From contig NZ_CP113361.1 of NCBI RefSeq assembly GCF_026684035.1, positions 1,674,001 to 1,738,000 on the forward strand: a DNA stretch of 64,000 nucleotides, given 5' to 3'. Numbering within the stretch: the first letter of the stretch is position 1; every line of letters begins with the position of its first letter. Below are positions 15,075-25,699 of this stretch, piece after piece. This DNA is from Methanogenium organophilum. Lineage in GTDB: Archaea; Halobacteriota; Methanomicrobia; Methanomicrobiales; Methanomicrobiaceae. The position numbers and the translations under genes are program-made. Under the pieces are notes generated by a model. That model was not told the DNA's origin. It saw only the letters and a list, made by a program, of their open reading frames with translations, and made no database searches.

Positions 15075-15272
15075 GGGTGTGGCCTCTGAGGGGTTTTGGT
15101 ATGGGTGAGATGAGGGTGGGGAGGGATATAATGGTTGGGTGGGGTTTTTGGAGGATATGGTGGTTGAAGAGAGGAAGAAGAACAGGTGGAAATGGTCGGT
15201 TTTAGGTTGAACATTGCCTTATTATGGTCAGAAAATGGAATGGGGAGTGAATTGGTGTGTTATATGAATAAA

Positions 15273-16275
15273 AGAGAATTTCTATCAACTTCCCTTATCC
15301 ACAAGTACTTTATTGCACCCGATCAATCACTGATTCATGAGCACTTTTACTAATTTTGCAATAAAATCTGAATATGAGCGTATTGCTGAATTAGGGGATT
15401 AGTTAGGTGAAGTTGAGAAACTGATCGACTGGGAACAATTTCGTCCAATTGTGGGAGAATTCTATTCAAATAAAACTGACAAAGGAGGTCGTCCCAATCT
15501 TGACGAAATCCTCATGATCAAAATGCTTGTTCTGCAGCAATGGCGCGGTCTCTCTGATCCCGAACTTGAGCGCCAGGCGAATGTTCGCATATCATTTAGA
15601 AAGTTCCTTGGATTTCCTGATATAATCCCGGACCGATCCACAATCTGGCTCTTCCGTGAAAGACTCTTTACAGCAGGAAAAGATACTGCGATCTGGACTG
15701 AGCTTCAGCGTCAGCTGGATGAAAAAGGCCTCACGATCAAGGAAGGCATGATTCAGGATGTGACATCCATCCATTCCGATCCCGGTCATTCTACTTCTGA
15801 TACTCTCCGAGGAGATGAGGCAAAGACAAGAAGAAGCAAAGACGGCATGGACAAAGAAGGGAGGGACATCGCACTTTGGATACAAACTCCATGCCTTTGT
15901 TGACAGGGACTGTGATCTGATTCGAAGAATTTCGACAACAACTTTTTCTGATCATGACAGCCAAGTCGAACTGTCTGAGAAAGGAGAAGTTGTTTATCGC
16001 GACAGAGGATAGCAAGGGGCGAGATGCAAGGGATTTAACGCAACGATGAAACGTGGGGCAGAAATCACCCGATTGGCATCAATGATATGCTTCGTAACGA
16101 AAGAATCACCCGAAAAAGATCCAAAGGAGAAAGACCGGTTGCTGCTATCAAAACGGTATTTAAAGCAGGAGCAGTGAAAGTCACCAAACTGGCCAGAGTA
16201 AGAGTCAAGAATACGTTCTCTGCATTTTGCTATAATCTCTATCAGTTGAGGACCATTGAAAAACAAAGAGCATAG
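15273..16275 (+). mobile_element. decayed IS5-type insertion sequence
   Basis: The element includes a conserved left-end segment (15273-15328) followed by a degenerate transposase gene. The same left-end segment occurs again without a transposase at 21866-21921, matching at about 51 of 56 positions, which is why I assign it to the element rather than to the host. I could not identify the right terminal repeat with confidence; it should lie within about 100 bp after 16275. Confidence 0.7.
15337..16275 (+). pseudogene. IS5-family DDE transposase, inactivated
   Basis: The reading frame begins at an ATG (15337, MSTFTNFAIKSEYERI) but meets an in-frame TAG at 15400. The conserved N-terminal domain continues from 15403 (GEVEKLIDWEQFRPIVGEFY) through the first catalytic region (EGMIQDVTSIHSDPGH). 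A frameshift near 15840 moves the frame before KKGGTSHFGYKLH, a second TAG follows DRG at 16010, and another frameshift near 16060 precedes HPIGINDMLRNERITRK and the terminal FSAFCYNLYQL segment. Two stops and two frameshifts mean that no functional transposase can be made. Confidence 0.85.
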
Positions 16276-16401: not shown

Positions 16402-16646
16402 CCTAAGTTTGCCACTTCACTCAATTTCCTCAAATTGTGGCGAAATAGAATTTGACAGTTCTAGGTATTCATAAAAATATTCCAAAAATCTCCTCATTTT
16501 GAGCTCAAATTTCATGCGGCACTGACATTCAGACAATAAAACTTGCATTTTTCTCACAAATTTGACTCTACTGTCAAATTCAATAGCGATTATTTTGGAG
16601 ATTTTTGGGCATGAAGTTCCTCTAGAGGTCAAATGGCAAACTTAGG
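16402..16646. mobile_element. 245-bp MITE-like element
   Basis: The element begins CCTAAGTTTGCCA and ends TGGCAAACTTAGG, a perfect 13-bp terminal inverted repeat. It is flanked on both sides by the direct repeat TCATAA (16396-16401 and 16647-16652), a 6-bp target-site duplication. Inside there are further inverted pairs: GAATTTGACAG with CTGTCAAATTC, and CCAAAAATCTCC with GGAGATTTTTGG. It encodes no transposase; the short open frame within it is a by-product of the inverted sequence. These features define a non-autonomous miniature transposable element. Confidence 0.8.
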
Positions 16647-16746: not shown

Positions 16747-17997
16747 TCATTTTTTCTTTAGGGTAATTAGACACAACCCTAAAATGACTGCAAGTACCGG
16801 AATTCCAGAAAAAAGATCTGCAGCCTGTGTTGTGTTCTCTTGATCAATGGTTTCAGCCGCATCTCTTTCAATTGTCCGCTGTGTTTCTGTTAGAGTTACG
16901 GAAGTATTTGGCAGATCCAGCTTTATCATTTTCAGGACATCCCGTCCATCAACTATGTCAGTCCAGATAACGGTATCTCCAGAGATGTCAGCTGCACCTC
17001 CATACTCTTCATCTGTAACGGAGATCAAAATCTCACTTCCTTCTTTGAGATTGTAGAGCCATACCGAATACTTGCCGCTTCTCTTATCGGTCCAGACAAT
17101 ATTGTCTCCGTCGATCTTCGGACTGCTCCTGATTCTCACACCGGGTGAGGCAATAACAGTTGTTTCGTTTGTGGAAATATCTGTCATAAGAAGCTGCTGG
17201 GGAGCACTGTCTTTTAAAAATGACCCAAAATCCTCATCGAACCTGTAGACAATTTTGTCGCCGGAGATATCGGGAGAAGAATATAACCCCTTCCTTTCAT
17301 CGCCGAGTTGTTGGATTTCACCGGTTTCAAGGTTCATTAAATATACCATGGCTGTCATCTGTCCATATCTGTTATCGCGAAAAACAAGATATTTTCCAGA
17401 AATAGCAACTGTTGACTGAAAGCCCGGCAATTCATGTTTGGTAAGACTTCCGTCTTCCAGGTTATATACAAATATCTCTCCGTGGTCATAGTCGGAAGTC
17501 TCTGCGACTGAATTCCTTCCTGTAATAATGATCTTGTTTTGACCTATTGTCAGTCCATCGATCGAATTGAATTTCTCCGCGATTCTTTCAGGGGATTTTC
17601 TCTCATCCAGATTATATGCATATATATCAAACTGCCCTTCAAACCAATTTCTTTCCTCAGATTTTGTCTTCCAAACGGCAATATTTCCGTAAATATCCTG
17701 GTGGCTGAAATCAGGAGGATTGTCAACGGATAGTTCTTCGAGTCCTGATCCGCTGGTTTTGTACAGGAATAATTTAGACCATCCCGGTATATCATCCGTC
17801 TCCGGATATACTTCACAGATTAAAACGTTCCCTGAATCGATCGCGGCATAGATGTAAGTGCCCTCTTCTGCCGTAAAGATCGTCGTCTCTTCGCTGAAGA
17901 TCCCGACAGCAGAAGCAGCCGGGGCAAGGATGCAGAGGAATAATACTAGTATCAGGAATTGCGGGGGCTTTTTTTTGAAGACAGATGGATAATTCAT
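16747..17997 (-). CDS. secreted beta-propeller surface protein, copy A
   Basis: The 416-residue product has a signal peptide (basic FKKK, then a hydrophobic run ending APAASA), a series of about seven beta-propeller blades of TolB/WD-like type with recurring D.sgd.ivw / i.a.NLe.G patterns (for example SPKIDGDNIVWTDKRSGKY and DISGDTVIWTDIVDGRDV), a Thr/Glu-rich linker and a C-terminal hydrophobic helix ending LKKK. It should be anchored on the outer face of the membrane. The start at 17997 is chosen because it gives a proper signal peptide. It is divergent from a small exported protein and has a close paralogue at 18878-20148. Confidence 0.78.
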   Translation of the reverse strand: MNYPSVFKKKPPQFLILVLFLCILAPAASAVGIFSEETTIFTAEEGTYIYAAIDSGNVLICEVYPETDDIPGWSKLFLYKTSGSGLEELSVDNPPDFSHQDIYGNIAVWKTKSEERNWFEGQFDIYAYNLDERKSPERIAEKFNSIDGLTIGQNKIIITGRNSVAETSDYDHGEIFVYNLEDGSLTKHELPGFQSTVAISGKYLVFRDNRYGQMTAMVYLMNLETGEIQQLGDERKGLYSSPDISGDKIVYRFDEDFGSFLKDSAPQQLLMTDISTNETTVIASPGVRIRSSPKIDGDNIVWTDKRSGKYSVWLYNLKEGSEILISVTDEEYGGAADISGDTVIWTDIVDGRDVLKMIKLDLPNTSVTLTETQRTIERDAAETIDQENTTQAADLFSGIPVLAVILGLCLITLKKK

Positions 17998-18044
17998 CGG
18001 ATAACAGCTATCTGCCTGCATAGATATATTATGTACCTGACTTT

Positions 18045-18107
18045 CGTCCAACAATCTGTCAAAGCTTATTTTTTATCCCATAATTGTTGGACGGTAATCA
18101 GAGAAAT
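18045..18107. promoter_or_regulatory. palindromic operator of module A
   Basis: The divergent intergenic region contains CGTCCAACAAT (18045-18055) and its exact inverted partner ATTGTTGGACG (18083-18093), 27 bp apart. The right arm continues into GTAATCAGAGAAAT, which is repeated almost exactly in the same position of the second module (20233-20257). A TATA-like TTGTATTTATT follows at about 18107. The conservation and symmetry indicate a regulator-binding site shared by both modules. Confidence 0.65.
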
Positions 18108-18165
18108 TGTATTTATTCTGATGAACAAATCCCATAAATTGTGTCAGATTATAATACGGCACAGG

Positions 18166-18750
18166 ATGAAAACAATGAAAGGATACAAAAAATATGCACT
18201 GATCGGAATTTTTCTGATCTTTGCATTTGTGGTCTGCTCGCCGGCGAGCGCACTCGAAGCAAAAGCGACCGACGAGCAGCTGAAAATAATGAACGAACTT
18301 GAAGGAAAGGATATCACCATCGGGGAGTATCTCCAGAAGGTGTGGCCGCAGTTCTATGACGAACTGAAAGACGAACAGAAGAAAAAAGTTGATAACTGGA
18401 AAAAGAGCTGGCCGGAATCTCCGGGATCTGTGGATAAAGATTCAAAAGCCTCAATGACAACAAATGCTGATATAAGCAGTGGAGAAAACAGGATAATTTA
18501 TAGTGGTGATTCGACTGTTCATGACGGAGTACCGTACTATCATTATATTGAAGTAAAACTGAAAAACAGTGCAGATCAAATTGTAAGTTCAACAGCTTTT
18601 AGCGAATTTGATGGAGATGGATATGTCAATGCAGAAAACACGAAATTCTGGCTCCCGTCAGGCTACTACACCTCAAATGCATGGAGTTACTCATTAGATC
18701 CTGATACCGAAGATTCAGATGCCGCAGGCCCCATGTATTATTCAGCCTGA
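18166..18750 (+). CDS. small exported protein, copy A
   Basis: The 194-residue product has a signal peptide (KKYALIGIFLIFAFVVCSPASA) and a conserved mature N-terminus: ATDEQLKIMNELEGKD, then ITIGEYLQKVWPQFYDEL and a lysine-rich helix ending in WP. The C-terminal part is variable and Ser/Thr/Tyr-rich. The same N-terminal block is present in the paralogue at 20354-20911 while the C-terminal parts differ, so the first is the shared functional domain. I do not recognise a named family. The start could be 18166 or the ATG three codons later. It is divergent from beta-propeller gene A and under the shared palindrome. Confidence 0.72.
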   Translation: MKTMKGYKKYALIGIFLIFAFVVCSPASALEAKATDEQLKIMNELEGKDITIGEYLQKVWPQFYDELKDEQKKKVDNWKKSWPESPGSVDKDSKASMTTNADISSGENRIIYSGDSTVHDGVPYYHYIEVKLKNSADQIVSSTAFSEFDGDGYVNAENTKFWLPSGYYTSNAWSYSLDPDTEDSDAAGPMYYSA

Positions 18751-18877
18751 TCAAAACAAAGTTACATACTTTTTTATGTGGATTTCAAAGTGATGCTATA
18801 CGATCCGGCTTCTTAAATACCGGATGCTTAATTACCAAATTGATTCTGAAAAGTGGGTTTTAAGAGACTGCCTTTTC

Positions 18878-20148
18878 TCAGTTTTCAATAACAATGTTTC
18901 TTCGGGAAATAAAACACAAACCAAAAATCACTCCTGCGAATGAAAAACCCCAAAATAGTCCTGCGGTTTGTGTTGAATTTTCCCCGTTATCAGTTTCAGC
19001 AACCCCTTTTTCAATTGTCTGCTGTATTTCGGTTAGAGTTGCAGAAGTTTTTGGCAAATCTAGCTTTATCAATTTTAGGACATTTCGTCCGTTTACCAAA
19101 TCTTTCCAGATAACAGAATCTCCGGATATTTCGACCGAACCCCCGGAGGTACCATTTGTATCTGAAATCAGAATCTCGTATTCTTCATTGATATTATAAA
19201 GCCTCACCGAGTAGTAAACCCTGTTTCTCTTATCGGCCCACACTATGTTGTTCCCGTCAATCTTCGGGCTTGCAACTTGTGCATCAGGTGATGCAATAAT
19301 AGTCATTTCGTTTGTGAATATATCAGTCATTAAGACCTTTTGAGGTGGATTATCTTTCAAAAATGATCCAAAATTTTCATCGAACTTATAGACTATTTTT
19401 TCACCGGATATATCGGGATTAGAATAAACTCCTTTATTTTCATCACCGATTTGTCGGGTTTTGCCTGTATCGAAGTTCATTAGATGAACTGTGTTTTTTA
19501 ACTGACCATATCTGGTATCCTGAAATATAAGGTTTTTACCGGAGACCGCCACCCATGACTGACAACCTGGCAATTCATACTTAGTAAGGCTTCCTTCTAC
19601 CAGATTATATACAAATATCTCCCCGTGATCATAGTCTCGAGTTTCTGTAGCTGAATTCCTTCCTGTAATAATGATCTTATCATTACATTTTGCAATGCCA
19701 TTGACAGAATAGAATTTCTCCGCGATTCTTTCAGGAGATTTTCTCTCATCCAAATTATACGCATATACATCAAACTGCCCTTCAACCCAGTCCCTTTCGG
19801 ATTTTGCCACCCATACTACAATGTTTTCATTGATGTCAAGATGATGATATAAAGAAAGAGACGGAGATGGATGAATTAACAATTCTTCAGGAGTTCCTTC
19901 GCTGATATTATACAGGTATAACCTTGACCAGCTGGAGGCATCATCCTTATCAGGATCAGGATATACTTCACATATTAAAATGTTCCCTGAATCTATCGCA
20001 GAAGAGATGTATGCTCCCTCTTCAGCCGTAAAGATCGTTTTCTTTTCGCCGGAGATCCCGACAGCAGAAGCAGCCGGGCCAAGTATACAGAGAGATAACA
20101 GCAATATAAAAACATTGAAATTATCTTATTGCCAGGAGAAGGATTCAT
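18878..20148 (-). pseudogene. secreted beta-propeller surface protein, copy B, frameshifted start
   Basis: This is a paralogue of the gene at 16747-17997 with the same propeller blades, linker and C-terminal helix (from about residue 20 onward nearly collinear). The matching start codon (cat at 20146-20148, MNPSPGNK) is in a different frame from the rest; the frame changes near 20125-20130. In the propeller frame a stop lies just upstream of DNFNVFILLLSLCILGPAASA. Without the shift the signal peptide would be normal. Initiation at the TTG (20104) would leave a very short signal sequence. I therefore treat it as probably inactive, though a sequencing error or a recent mutation is possible. Confidence 0.6.
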
Positions 20149-20193
20149 CGGATTTAACTGTCGCCATTAACGAATATATATTAAATCTCATTT

Positions 20194-20257
20194 CTGTCCA
20201 ACTAACAATCAGAATCCGGTATTCACCTGAGAATTGTTGGACAGTTCTCAGAGAAAT
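20194..20257. promoter_or_regulatory. palindromic operator of module B
   Basis: CTGTCCAAC (20194-20202) pairs with GTTGGACAG (20236-20244). The right part, ATTGTTGGACAGTTCTCAG then AGAAAT, matches 22 of 25 positions of the element upstream of copy A. A TATA-like ACTATATG follows. The same placement relative to the divergent genes argues for common control. Confidence 0.65.
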
Positions 20258-20353
20258 ACTATATGTCCTCACTTTCTAAAGTAGATTAAAACTATCTCTG
20301 ATTCAATGCCAGGAGATTTTCATAAAATTAATTATCGTTGAGGCAGGGGGCAC

Positions 20354-20911
20354 ATGAATATAAATGAAAAAGAAAAGAATACAGCCATTTTCAGATTTAT
20401 AGCAGCATTACTGCTTTTTCTTTTAATTATAATTCCCATTACACCGGCACAGGCCGTGTCAGCAGAAGCGACCGAGGAGCAGCTGAAGGTAATGAACGAA
20501 CTTGAGGGATCTGATATCACTATTGGAGAATACCTGAAGAAGGCATGGCCCCAGTTCTATGATGAACTTACGGACGAACAAAAAGAGAGGGTAAGCCGCT
20601 GGAAGAAAGGGTGGCCTAAAGATCCCGTACATATAGAAGAAAACCAAATCAACTGGCACAGCCAGAATATTACATCGTACACGACCGCACTCAATATCAA
20701 CCTCAAATGGAAGAACCCGTTGTCTAATCTAAGCCTGAATGTCTATTCACCTGAAGGCAGATCTTTTGGGCCTTTTTATGACAATTTTGACGGACATACA
20801 AACGGGCAGATCTATTTTTTCATCAGGAAGGAAGGTGGACTTCAGATGGGTGAATGGTGGTATGCAGTAGAAGGAGAGGAGATCAATGAAACACAGAAAT
20901 ATTTTTTCTGA
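20354..20911 (+). CDS. small exported protein, copy B
   Basis: The 185-residue product has a lysine/glutamate N-terminus, a hydrophobic signal segment (FIAALLLFLLIIIPITPAQAVS) and the conserved block seen in copy A (ATEEQLKVMNELEGSD, ITIGEYLKKAWPQFYDEL, then a basic helix ending GWP). The remainder, different from copy A, has beta-strand character (NITSYTTALNINLKW, GQIYFFIRKEGG). The ATG is preceded by GGGGG. The next gene, the membrane-anchored regulator, overlaps it by 26 bp, so expression is linked. The function is unknown. Confidence 0.72.
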   Translation: MNINEKEKNTAIFRFIAALLLFLLIIIPITPAQAVSAEATEEQLKVMNELEGSDITIGEYLKKAWPQFYDELTDEQKERVSRWKKGWPKDPVHIEENQINWHSQNITSYTTALNINLKWKNPLSNLSLNVYSPEGRSFGPFYDNFDGHTNGQIYFFIRKEGGLQMGEWWYAVEGEEINETQKYFF

Positions 20912-21629
20912 ACTAAATGATCCAAAGAACCTCTTATTCAGCCTAATCGTCATAATTATATTGGCGAAGGCGGTTTCAGCGACCCCTTTTCCCAGTGAAG
21001 ACGACGAATATATTATAACCGGATCGACTGTTCCGGGGGATTATATAGACTCTTCAGGAACTGACGGACCCGAAAGCTTTGATGACGTGCCTTTGTGGAT
21101 TAAGGCATCCGTTCTTGCAGGCGCGGCCGCCTCATCCTTATGCCTTCTAAAATACATCCCGCTTATATCGGGGAAAATAAAGGAGAAAAATTCCAACGGA
21201 AACAGGAGAAAAATCCTTGAGATTATACGTGAATATCCGGGAAGTACAGCAACCGAAATTAATACTCTTACATGGATTAATACCGGAACTATCAGGTATC
21301 ATCTCTCTATCCTTGAGAAAAACCGTGATGTGGTCTCTGTGAAAACCGGCCACACGTACTGTTATTTTTTAAATGGGTCTCGGTACACTCACGAGCAGAT
21401 GGTTATTACGGCTCTCTCAAAAAACGAGACCACAAAACGGATAATTCACGTGATAAACGAAAGACCAGGTATCTCGAATAAATCTGTATCGGGTATTATC
21501 GGCATTGACAAGAGTTCAGTACACTGGCACATAAAAAGACTTGCCGAAGCGGAGGTTATAATGATCAAAAGTGAGGGACGGACATCTCAGTTTTTCATGA
21601 GGGAAGGATTTGAGAAATATTCCGTATAA
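20886..21629 (+). CDS. membrane-anchored winged-helix regulator with two HTH domains
   Basis: The 247-residue protein begins with a hydrophobic segment (NLLFSLIVIIILAKAVSA), an extracytoplasmic stretch rich in acidic residues, a second hydrophobic helix (IKASVLAGAAASSLCLLKYI) and then two cytosolic winged-helix domains: RRKILEIIREYPGSTATEI with TGTIRYHLSILE, and TKRIIHVINERPGISNKSV with KSSVHWHIKRLAEA. This is a known methanogen type in which an external signal could be passed directly to DNA. It overlaps the 3' end of the exported protein B gene. It is a good candidate for binding the shared palindromes at 18045 and 20194. Confidence 0.85.
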   Translation: MKHRNIFSELNDPKNLLFSLIVIIILAKAVSATPFPSEDDEYIITGSTVPGDYIDSSGTDGPESFDDVPLWIKASVLAGAAASSLCLLKYIPLISGKIKEKNSNGNRRKILEIIREYPGSTATEINTLTWINTGTIRYHLSILEKNRDVVSVKTGHTYCYFLNGSRYTHEQMVITALSKNETTKRIIHVINERPGISNKSVSGIIGIDKSSVHWHIKRLAEAEVIMIKSEGRTSQFFMREGFEKYSV

Positions 21630-21865
21630 ACGAAGAGAATGTATTTTTGTGTGATTGAGATAAACAAATGGATAATAAAATTTCAAGATTCAGTTCAACA
21701 ATTTAAAATATTCTAATCAAGAAAATAGCTTACAGAACCAGCTGAATATATAGGCAATCCTTATCTGAGCGAACTTACACATTCAACTATAATCAGGTCT
21801 CATAATCGGAATCAATATCCTTAAAAATGGTAAACAATTCAATTAGAAATAATTCCATAAATTAT

Positions 21866-21921
21866 AGAGAATTTCTATTAACCTCCCTTTTCCGCAAGTA
21901 CTTTATTGCACCCGATCGATC
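21866..21921 (+). mobile_element. solo left end of the IS5-type element
   Basis: The 56-bp segment repeats the left end of the decayed insertion sequence at 15273-15328 with about five differences, including an identical core CAAGTACTTTATTGCACCC. No transposase follows. It marks either an old excision or a deletion. Confidence 0.65.
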
Positions 21922-22057
21922 GCTATTTCATCCTACTATCCGCAGAAAGAATAGTCCACAATACAATTGACCTACCAAAGAATCGATGTAAGTTTTTAGT
22001 AAATCGGCCTTGTAGAAATCCTATAAGAAAATAGCGGATAAAAGATCGATCGTATGG

Positions 22058-22290: not shown

Positions 22291-23607
22291 TCACACCTCC
22301 TCCGCCAGCCCGAGCAGAAACACCGTTATGGGAACAATCCGTATCTCCACCCCGTCTTCAACGGTGGTTTTGATGGTGCTCTCAGTGATGATTGATCCCC
22401 TGGTGAGACCGAATGTTTTGCAGGCCATGACCAGACCGGAGGTCTCCCGTTGCAGATTCTGTTCGTTCAGGTCATAGCAGACCTGGTATGCCCCGGTGAT
22501 GGCATTCCCCTCCTGCACAATAAAATCACACTCGGAACCGCCCTCATTCAGGAAAAAGGTCGTTTTGCCTCTGCGCATCAGTTCGTTGAAGACGACATTT
22601 TCATAGAGCCTCCCGATGTTTTGGGAAAATGAGAATGAGACGGCATTCACAAACCCGGTGTCGATGGCGTAATATTTGGTATCCGAGATGAGCTGCTTTT
22701 TGAGAGAATAGCTGAAGTTTCTCAGTTCAAAGACCATATAAACCTGCCTGAGGTAATCGATGTAATCCTCAACAGTCTGGTAGTTGTACTTCAGCGCTCT
22801 CGTGATACTGTTGATGCTGTTTTGTTTTGTATCATTCGTGAGAAGATAGCGGGCCAGTTTTTTGAGCTTTTCAAAGTTTCTGAGCCTGAACCGTGAGAGT
22901 ATATCCTTCAGGAGTATCGTATTATAGTACGACACCAATTCCTCTTTTTTCAGGTCTTCATCTATCGATGCAACACGGGGAAATCCTCCGTATCGTAGAT
23001 ATTCTGCAAATAAGCGGTGTATCTCAATCTTTTTCGCGGAATAATCCATGATATTTTTGCATTCCACATTCTGAAATGCCAAAAATTCACTGAATGTGAG
23101 AGGGTACACAGCCAGCTGGAGATATCTGCCGGAAATCGAAGTAGCAATCTCACCCGATAACAGCCGTGATGACGAACCCGTTACATAGACCTTCGCTTTC
23201 TGCAACTCATACGCAGTCCGAACCCATTTTTCCCAGCCATTGACATTTTGCACCTCATCAAGGAAGATAAATACATCACCATCGGGATTGATGGTCTCGC
23301 GGTACGTCTCGAAGATCATATCGAGGGTCCGGGTATCGATGGTATCTCCGAACCGCGGGTCCTCAAAATTTATGTACAGGAGCGCTTCTTTTCCCACATG
23401 TTGTGCGAGGTCCTGCATCTCAAGCTTTAAGAGCGTTGATTTTCCACTCCTCCTGATGCCGGTAAGGACGATGATCTCGCCGGATTTCCTGAAACGACGA
23501 ATTGTATTGAGATATTCAGTCCTCGGGACATATGCTTCAAAGTCCCGTTTCCAGTAGTTCCAGTCGTTGAGGATCTCAGTTATCCCGAGCTTCGTGAGCT
23601 CCTGCAT
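22291..23607 (-). CDS. archaeal AAA+ ATPase with DUF4143 domain
   Basis: The 438-residue product has a Walker A motif (TGIRRSGKST, about residue 50), a Walker B motif (VFIFLDEVQN) and sensor (VYVTGSSSRLL) in an AAA_14-type domain, followed by a DUF4143 domain with a C-terminal nuclease-like segment (FNELMRRG ... GGSECDFIVQEG). Such proteins are common in archaea and many bacteria and have no assigned role; a link with mobile DNA or defence is often suspected. The start is the ATG at 23607, with a TTG at 23628 in frame upstream. A TATA-like TTTATTC about 28 bp upstream suggests a leaderless transcript. Confidence 0.85.
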   Translation of the reverse strand: MQELTKLGITEILNDWNYWKRDFEAYVPRTEYLNTIRRFRKSGEIIVLTGIRRSGKSTLLKLEMQDLAQHVGKEALLYINFEDPRFGDTIDTRTLDMIFETYRETINPDGDVFIFLDEVQNVNGWEKWVRTAYELQKAKVYVTGSSSRLLSGEIATSISGRYLQLAVYPLTFSEFLAFQNVECKNIMDYSAKKIEIHRLFAEYLRYGGFPRVASIDEDLKKEELVSYYNTILLKDILSRFRLRNFEKLKKLARYLLTNDTKQNSINSITRALKYNYQTVEDYIDYLRQVYMVFELRNFSYSLKKQLISDTKYYAIDTGFVNAVSFSFSQNIGRLYENVVFNELMRRGKTTFFLNEGGSECDFIVQEGNAITGAYQVCYDLNEQNLQRETSGLVMACKTFGLTRGSIITESTIKTTVEDGVEIRIVPITVFLLGLAEEV

Positions 23608-23640
23608 GATACTCAATTCGGTGAACAAATAGAATAAACT

Positions 23641-25156: not shown

Positions 25157-25699
25157 TCATGCTTCCGGTGGAATCATTACCGCGTCAATGACATGAATGA
25201 CACCGTTGCTGCATTCGACATCGGTGATGATGACATTTGCACTATCCACCATCACTCCGTCCGAGGTGTCAATGGTCAATACACTGCCCTGCAGGGTATC
25301 GATGGTGTCCATCGTTATGACATCCGCAGCCATGTATTTCCCGTCTGCCACATGATAGAGCAGGATGTCTGTGAGTTGTCCTTCCGGATCTTCCAGCAGT
25401 GTATCAACCGTCCCCTCAGGTAGCGCTGCAAAAGCATCGTCTGTGGGAGCAAACACGGTGTATGGTCCCTCCCCTGAGAGCGTATCCGTAAGCCCTGCAG
25501 CATCGACTGCTGTAAGAAGGGTCGTAAAAGACCCTGCATCCTCTGCAGTCTCTACTATCGTTTTCATTGCCGGTGTTGGCGTAGTGGCAGGAGTTGGAGT
25601 TGGAGTTGGAGTTGCTGCCGGAGGCTCGGAAGTGGTACATCCGGCGACCAGCACTGCCGCGACCACTAGCATGAGACCCAGCATTTTTTGTAATTTCAT
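25157..25699 (-). CDS. FAS1 (fasciclin) domain lipoprotein
   Basis: The 180-residue product has a lipoprotein signal peptide with lipobox VAGC (Cys21), a Thr/Pro-rich linker and one FAS1 domain. The FAS1 H1 and H2 motifs are visible: [16 protein letters not shown] and [11 protein letters not shown] with the terminal [16 protein letters not shown]1 domains mediate adhesion or surface assembly. The protein is predicted to be lipid-anchored outside the cell. G-rich sequence precedes the start. It is not in an obvious operon. Confidence 0.9.

Follow-up and report, generated by a model that had tools for sequence, protein, structure and literature searches.

A candidate surface-protein regulon with a membrane-tethered regulator and an exported PPC-like partner in methanogens

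Genes and predicted promoters of the island

In a 64,000-nucleotide stretch of the Methanogenium organophilum genome (contig NZ_CP113361.1, positions 1,674,001–1,738,000; the window hereafter), positions 16,747–21,629 carry an island of five genes, in which two modules, each pairing a beta-propeller protein with a small exported protein, are followed by a membrane regulator. The host is a methanogen with a 2.65 Mb genome and two McrA genes, and the G+C content of the island is 41% vs 63% immediately upstream. All five genes, which an earlier note on this DNA had read from the letters as a tandem duplication ending in an overlapping regulator, were confirmed. Propeller A (minus strand, 16747–17997) is predicted to be exported and to carry a hydrophobic C-terminal anchor; its open reading frame extends to 18054, and the start at 17997 is preferred over that at 18054 given the TATA-like box predicted at 18024–18033. 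Propeller B (minus strand, 18878–20104) is 63% identical to it over 404 amino acids. The only start of propeller B is a TTG, followed by a short signal peptide, and its N terminus may be damaged. Inspection of 18878–20125 revealed no in-frame ATG near the start; an ATG immediately upstream lies in another frame, which may indicate that the signal peptide is frameshifted.

The small proteins share their N-terminal domain (N-domain, about 60–70 residues) and not their C termini, as the earlier note had also described, with 64% identity limited to 69 amino acids. Small protein A (plus strand, 18166–18750, the start chosen from the TATA-like box at 18108) is composed of a signal peptide, the N-domain and an unrelated beta-rich C terminus. 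In small protein B (plus strand, 20354–20911), signal peptide and N-domain (about residues 35–90) precede a PPC-like beta-sandwich (about residues 94–185). The regulator gene (plus strand, 20886–21629) overlaps that of small protein B by 26 nucleotides. Its product is predicted to start with a transmembrane segment or signal (residues 16–34), followed by a short external loop, a second transmembrane segment (residues 70–88) and two winged helix-turn-helix (wHTH) domains (residues 103–165 and 180–237).

These parts are known folds: propeller, winged helices and a PPC-like sandwich. The propeller repeat TIGR04275 matches propeller A (1.4e-21, 76 bits) and propeller B (3.1e-13, 49 bits), both under the curated cut-off of 85 bits, and neither protein is thereby assigned to that family. 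The predicted structure of propeller A (mean predicted local distance difference test score (pLDDT) 62.8, moderate confidence) was the sole usable model; Foldseek aligned it with the solved propeller 2gop (E 3.3e-11) and, similarly, with the propellers of TolB and acylaminoacyl-peptidase, so that its fold, as modelled, is a beta-propeller. The model of small protein B (mean pLDDT 43.5) was unusable, and neither the PPC-like domain nor the N-domain nor the propeller had a match in profile searches of solved structures. PF04151 (PPC) matches 9 of 22 diverse relatives of the C-terminal domain of small protein B, at best with 2.3e-8. Assignment of the N-domain to the LTXXQ family (CpxP/Spy) was rejected (PF07813, 15.7 bits vs a cut-off of 24.3, E 0.025). 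In the regulator, Pfam identifies HTH_20/HTH_HVO_0163_N and HTH_24, the two wHTH domains exceeding their curated cut-offs with 58 bits (cut-off 21.9) and 38 bits (cut-off 31). Together with two hydrophobic segments in the same chain, whose topology was taken from hydropathy only, this is the predicted architecture of a membrane-tethered one-component regulator. By PADLOC, the regulator matches Csa3/CARF models in their HTH parts only.

The element TTGTTGGAC-N5-TCAGR (class 1) is present at each of the four promoters predicted for the island, one copy being degenerate. The half-sites form inverted pairs between divergent genes, each just upstream of a TATA-like box. Between the genes of the first module, TTGTTGGACGAAAGTCAGG (minus strand, 18036–18054) precedes the predicted box of propeller A (minus strand, 18024–18033), and TTGTTGGACGGTAATCAGA (plus strand, 18084–18102) that of small protein A (plus strand, 18108–18116). 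In the second module, TAGTTGGACAGAAATGAGA (minus strand, 20186–20204), with two mismatches, precedes the putative box of propeller B (minus strand, 20173–20181), and TTGTTGGACAGTTCTCAGA (plus strand, 20234–20252) that of small protein B and the regulator (plus strand, 20259–20265).

Promoter elements and gene pairing across genomes

In the host genome, the core GTTGGAC-N5-TCAG is matched exactly three times, each time at the window island, where the fourth half-site differs from it by one mismatch. With at most one mismatch, 16 class-1 sites were counted in four class-1 islands (mean of the shuffled control, 0.07) vs none in 173 kb around islands of a second class. Eight further whole genomes together contain seven exact half-sites, of which six lie in class-1 islands and one does not. 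Among 232 genomes of the order, 3 have the exact inverted pair, always in one of these islands; its reversed control yielded 0.

Class-2 islands carry TGTAGAG-N3-T-N2-GGAATAA at the same promoter position, and its 11 exact matches in nine whole genomes lie without exception in islands; close variants precede genes at loci L106–L110, which were not used to derive the pattern. Distinct versions of the element are found in a class-1 variant (L101, L102) and in a third class (L111, L112, L114). Element type follows the regulator tree, in which class 1 with its variant (support 99/97), class 2 with its variant (100/100) and class 3 (100/100) are separated. A distant second regulator in L103 bears the class-2 label by locus only and falls outside class 2 in the tree. 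In three genomes that have islands of two classes (G000, G031, G025), both elements are present, at the islands of the matching class.

Homologous islands were found in many related genomes on searching, as the earlier note had proposed, for the N-domain together with propellers and regulators. The N-domain profile matches 45 of 159 genomes of the order. Regions chosen around the stronger matches (L095–L105) encode one to four propellers and at least one N-domain protein, then a hybrid of N-domain and PPC-like domain with the regulator directly after it; the full design is also present in the host genome at 925–931 kb (L028). Every propeller relative with E<1e-39 sits in such an island, and nearly all N-domain loci examined have a regulator, mostly with a propeller. 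As this gene order repeats in many genomes, the association is far beyond chance. The earlier suggestion of one functional unit, made of surface proteins and a regulator with an external part and two cytosolic winged helices, is supported. A divergent group (L106–L110) combines N-domain proteins, hybrid and regulator, with no propeller detected. A second layout, in five genomes (the host, G049, G111, G033 and G015), comprises a propeller–PPC fusion beside a divergent regulator and a second, larger propeller. Searches of public genome contigs with the single proteins, regulator and propeller of the window, gave no match, nor did profile searches of viral contigs. At one locus outside the order (L172:1788–3702), an N-domain gene is divergent from a PPC–regulator pair, an arrangement suggesting that the N-domain link may predate the order.

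The pairing of PPC-like domain and regulator extends further. In the host genome, a search with small protein B showed that its C-terminal domain recurs at several further sites, most of them beside a regulator paralogue. A profile of this domain (A1) matches 93 of 159 genomes of the order and 78 of 295 in a sample of the phylum. Among the best-scoring A1 loci, which are no random draw, the regulator lies directly downstream on the same strand at 27 of 30 in the order; at the remaining three (L061, L062 and L039, the last ended by a contig edge and grouped with the others by eye) the domain follows a propeller in one protein. Outside the order, the regulator adjoins a PPC-like gene at all 23 best-scoring loci, one with a truncated reading frame. 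Most PPC–regulator pairs have no propeller, so that the propeller is a recurrent client and not an obligate partner. Judged by gene order, propeller, PPC-like domain and regulator are linked in two layouts and the PPC–regulator pair also stands alone; the deeper conserved unit is an exported PPC-like protein followed by a membrane wHTH regulator. At the widest scale this pair, rather than the combination of propeller and regulator read in the earlier note, is what is conserved. According to the earlier note, finding the small-protein domain and the regulator encoded separately without a propeller would refute the proposed system; this is what is seen for the regulator with its PPC partner and not for the N-domain.

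A loose 'GYxVxP' pattern after the signal occurs in 33 of 54 regulators and 17 of 25 stand-alone PPC proteins, and was left out of the mechanism below because small protein B lacks it by eye. Elsewhere in the host genome, 116055–117887 (L026) holds two near-identical tandem regulator copies with no PPC neighbour, and a nearby exported protein (112946–113530) resembles by eye the C-terminal half of class-2 N-domain proteins. At 162282–163453 (L027), the signal-peptide region of a PPC-like gene beside a regulator is broken by stops; the pair is intact at 173 kb, and L027 seems to be a degenerating copy of it.

Proposed circuit, alternatives and genomic setting

With moderate confidence, we propose that the island is a self-contained surface-protein regulon, whose regulator controls all of its units and has the PPC-like domain as its external partner. 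The regulator would reside in the membrane, with a short loop outside and both winged helices inside the cell, and it probably controls its own island. Since the element is nearly private to the islands and changes with the island's own regulator, the regulator is the best candidate binder and likely the factor that recognizes the inverted TTGTTGGAC-N5-TCAGR sites beside the TATA box of every island transcription unit. The direct transmembrane control of transcription envisaged in the earlier note gains support from these shared promoter elements. We consider it moderately likely that the regulator activates the island promoters, in which case it would switch on every unit, its own operon included. 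Activation is likelier than repression because the element lies just upstream of the TATA box, where two known factors act: sites of the activator EarA of methanogens are located directly upstream of the TFB recognition element (BRE) and TATA box of surface-structure genes (PMC5512572), and the inverted repeats of ArnR are located between −43 and −84, on the upstream side of BRE/TATA (PMC6396743).

The input would come from the exported PPC-like domain that the immediately preceding gene encodes; in the window, this domain forms the C-terminal half of small protein B. Its near-constant presence as a neighbour suggests that it is the external partner of a membrane factor, and it likely contacts the regulator outside the cell. 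With its PPC-like domain fused to the N-domain that the clients also carry, the hybrid could take a place in the surface complex, whose state it would pass on to the regulator. This last step, in which the hybrid reads the state of the propeller/N-domain complex, is speculative and follows from the N-domain that hybrid and clients share.

Several observations weigh against this proposal. Some regulator paralogues in the host genome (116–118 kb, 2326 kb) have no PPC neighbour; the window's own PPC-like domain has no Pfam PPC match and owes its label to relatives; and loci L106–L110, where no propeller was detected, indicate that the rest of the island does not require one. One exact class-1 half-site, in genome G153, lies outside any island. 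The element patterns were moreover partly derived from loci in which they were counted, the independent tests being the cross-class comparison, the whole-genome counts and L106–L110.

Two of the alternatives concern what binds the element and to what effect. Proteins with ArsR/MarR-type wHTH domains are often repressors, and the element almost abuts the TATA box, where a bound factor could block the TATA-binding protein (TBP) and transcription factor B (TFB). That the regulator binds the element but represses the island until a signal releases it is therefore conceivable, if rather unlikely, as a site upstream of every TATA-like box is the usual position of an archaeal activator (PMC5512572). 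The proximity to TATA, where TFB also contacts DNA, would likewise fit a special BRE for an alternative TFB, or a site for a regulator encoded elsewhere, in which case the linked regulator would act on other genes and just travel with the surface genes. This we regard as unlikely: the elements, at about 20 bp, are longer than a BRE, they are nearly confined to islands in whole genomes, and their type switches with the clade of the linked regulator even within G000, G031 and G025.

Other readings assign the exported proteins a different role. A common N-domain with differing C termini, the tandem duplication, low G+C and insertion-sequence flanks would suit an inter-microbial conflict or communication cassette, with N-domain proteins as secreted effectors or signals, the propeller as partner or immunity protein and the regulator as sensor; variable secreted-protein loci of archaea have been proposed to serve conflicts or quorum sensing (PMC4158269). 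However, the C-terminal halves of the N-domain proteins belong to a few conserved beta-rich types instead of a diverse toxin set, none matches a toxin or peptidase, and PADLOC has no match for the exported proteins, which makes a cassette of this kind quite improbable. We give the least credence to a plain surface-layer or adhesion cluster under an unremarkable switch, with a PPC protein that does not sense. Archaeal cell-surface proteins are known to contain propellers with the repeat type of propellers A and B (PMC2447325), but the near-invariant and mostly propeller-free pairing of PPC-like domain and regulator across the phylum argues that the exported partner matters to the regulator. For the adhesion role entertained in the earlier note, no direct evidence emerged.

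Taken beyond the window, the proposed regulon would be one instance of a phylum-wide mode of archaeal transmembrane signalling, in which each genome has several diverged copies of an exported PPC-like sensor paired with a tethered tandem-wHTH factor. Where the system is elaborated, the sensor would share the N-domain of the clients, and the regulator would read the surface complex and act through a private, coevolving promoter element. We hold the odds on this wider picture to be even.

Mobile elements border the island. A frameshifted DUF772 transposase lies at 15264–16275 of the window; the 75 bp at its upstream end recur beyond the island at 21857–21931 with 85% identity, so that the island is flanked by insertion-sequence ends. 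At 16403–16645, about 240 bp between inverted CTAAGTTTGCCACTT ends resemble the remnant of a miniature inverted-repeat transposable element; in L095, a CTAAGTTTGCCACTT end is also found at the edge of an insertion that separates a propeller from its promoter element. Downstream, an AAA_14/DUF4143 ATPase (22291–23628) adjoins the island, and 25157–25699 encodes an exported fasciclin-domain protein with a threonine/proline-rich linker.

Comparison with known systems

Apart from two-component systems and a handful of one-component regulators, little is known of archaeal signalling from the outside to the DNA. The widespread pair of exported partner and tethered factor comes with a likely DNA element and targets for three regulator classes, which opens signal, partner contact and DNA recognition to direct tests; it also gives a role to several so far unnamed families of methanogen surface proteins. 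No account of the combination turned up in a search of open-licence papers, and a PPC–regulator signalling system, recurring across many methanogens, seems to be undescribed. The shared promoter elements predicted for the island, and their restriction to such islands, are new.

The single parts have relatives in other settings. PPC domains (PF04151) are beta-sandwiches, exported as here, but are usually located at the end of peptidases; the PPC-like domain pairs with the regulator and either stands alone or is fused to a propeller or an N-domain. The propellers match, below the curated cut-off, the repeat of the exported TIGR04275 or RIVW-type surface propellers of methanogens, and in the islands they go together with a regulator and N-domain proteins. 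The family descriptions of HTH_HVO_0163_N (PF24266) and HTH_24 include neither a PPC pairing nor elements at their own promoters. The likeness of the N-domain to CpxP/Spy LTXXQ proteins is faint and not significant, and the island has no histidine kinase. EarA is not known to be membrane-tethered and, unlike the regulator described here, controls the archaellum operon.

Two tethered regulators offer parallels. The Vibrio ToxR/ToxS system also has a tethered transcription factor whose activity is supported by an external partner from the same operon (PMC7496328). In contrast to the present pair, it is bacterial, its DNA-binding domain is N-terminal, and ToxS is not PPC-like; no sequence relation was found, and a similar working principle is suggested by the gene pairing. 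Membership of the ToxR family was rejected, as the regulator has no Trans_reg_C (OmpR-type) Pfam match and its winged helices are C-terminal. The ArnR family (arCOG05969, pfam13463) was likewise rejected, PF13463 being absent from the Pfam matches and the HTHs again C-terminal. ArnR and ArnR1 of Sulfolobus nevertheless share with the regulator that they are archaeal, membrane-bound HTH proteins, namely one-component activators of surface structures. ArnR targets the flaB promoter and has its HTH at the N terminus, along with a putative HAMP domain, whereas the regulator of the methanogen islands has two wHTHs at the C terminus and an external loop, and the gene upstream of it encodes an exported partner.

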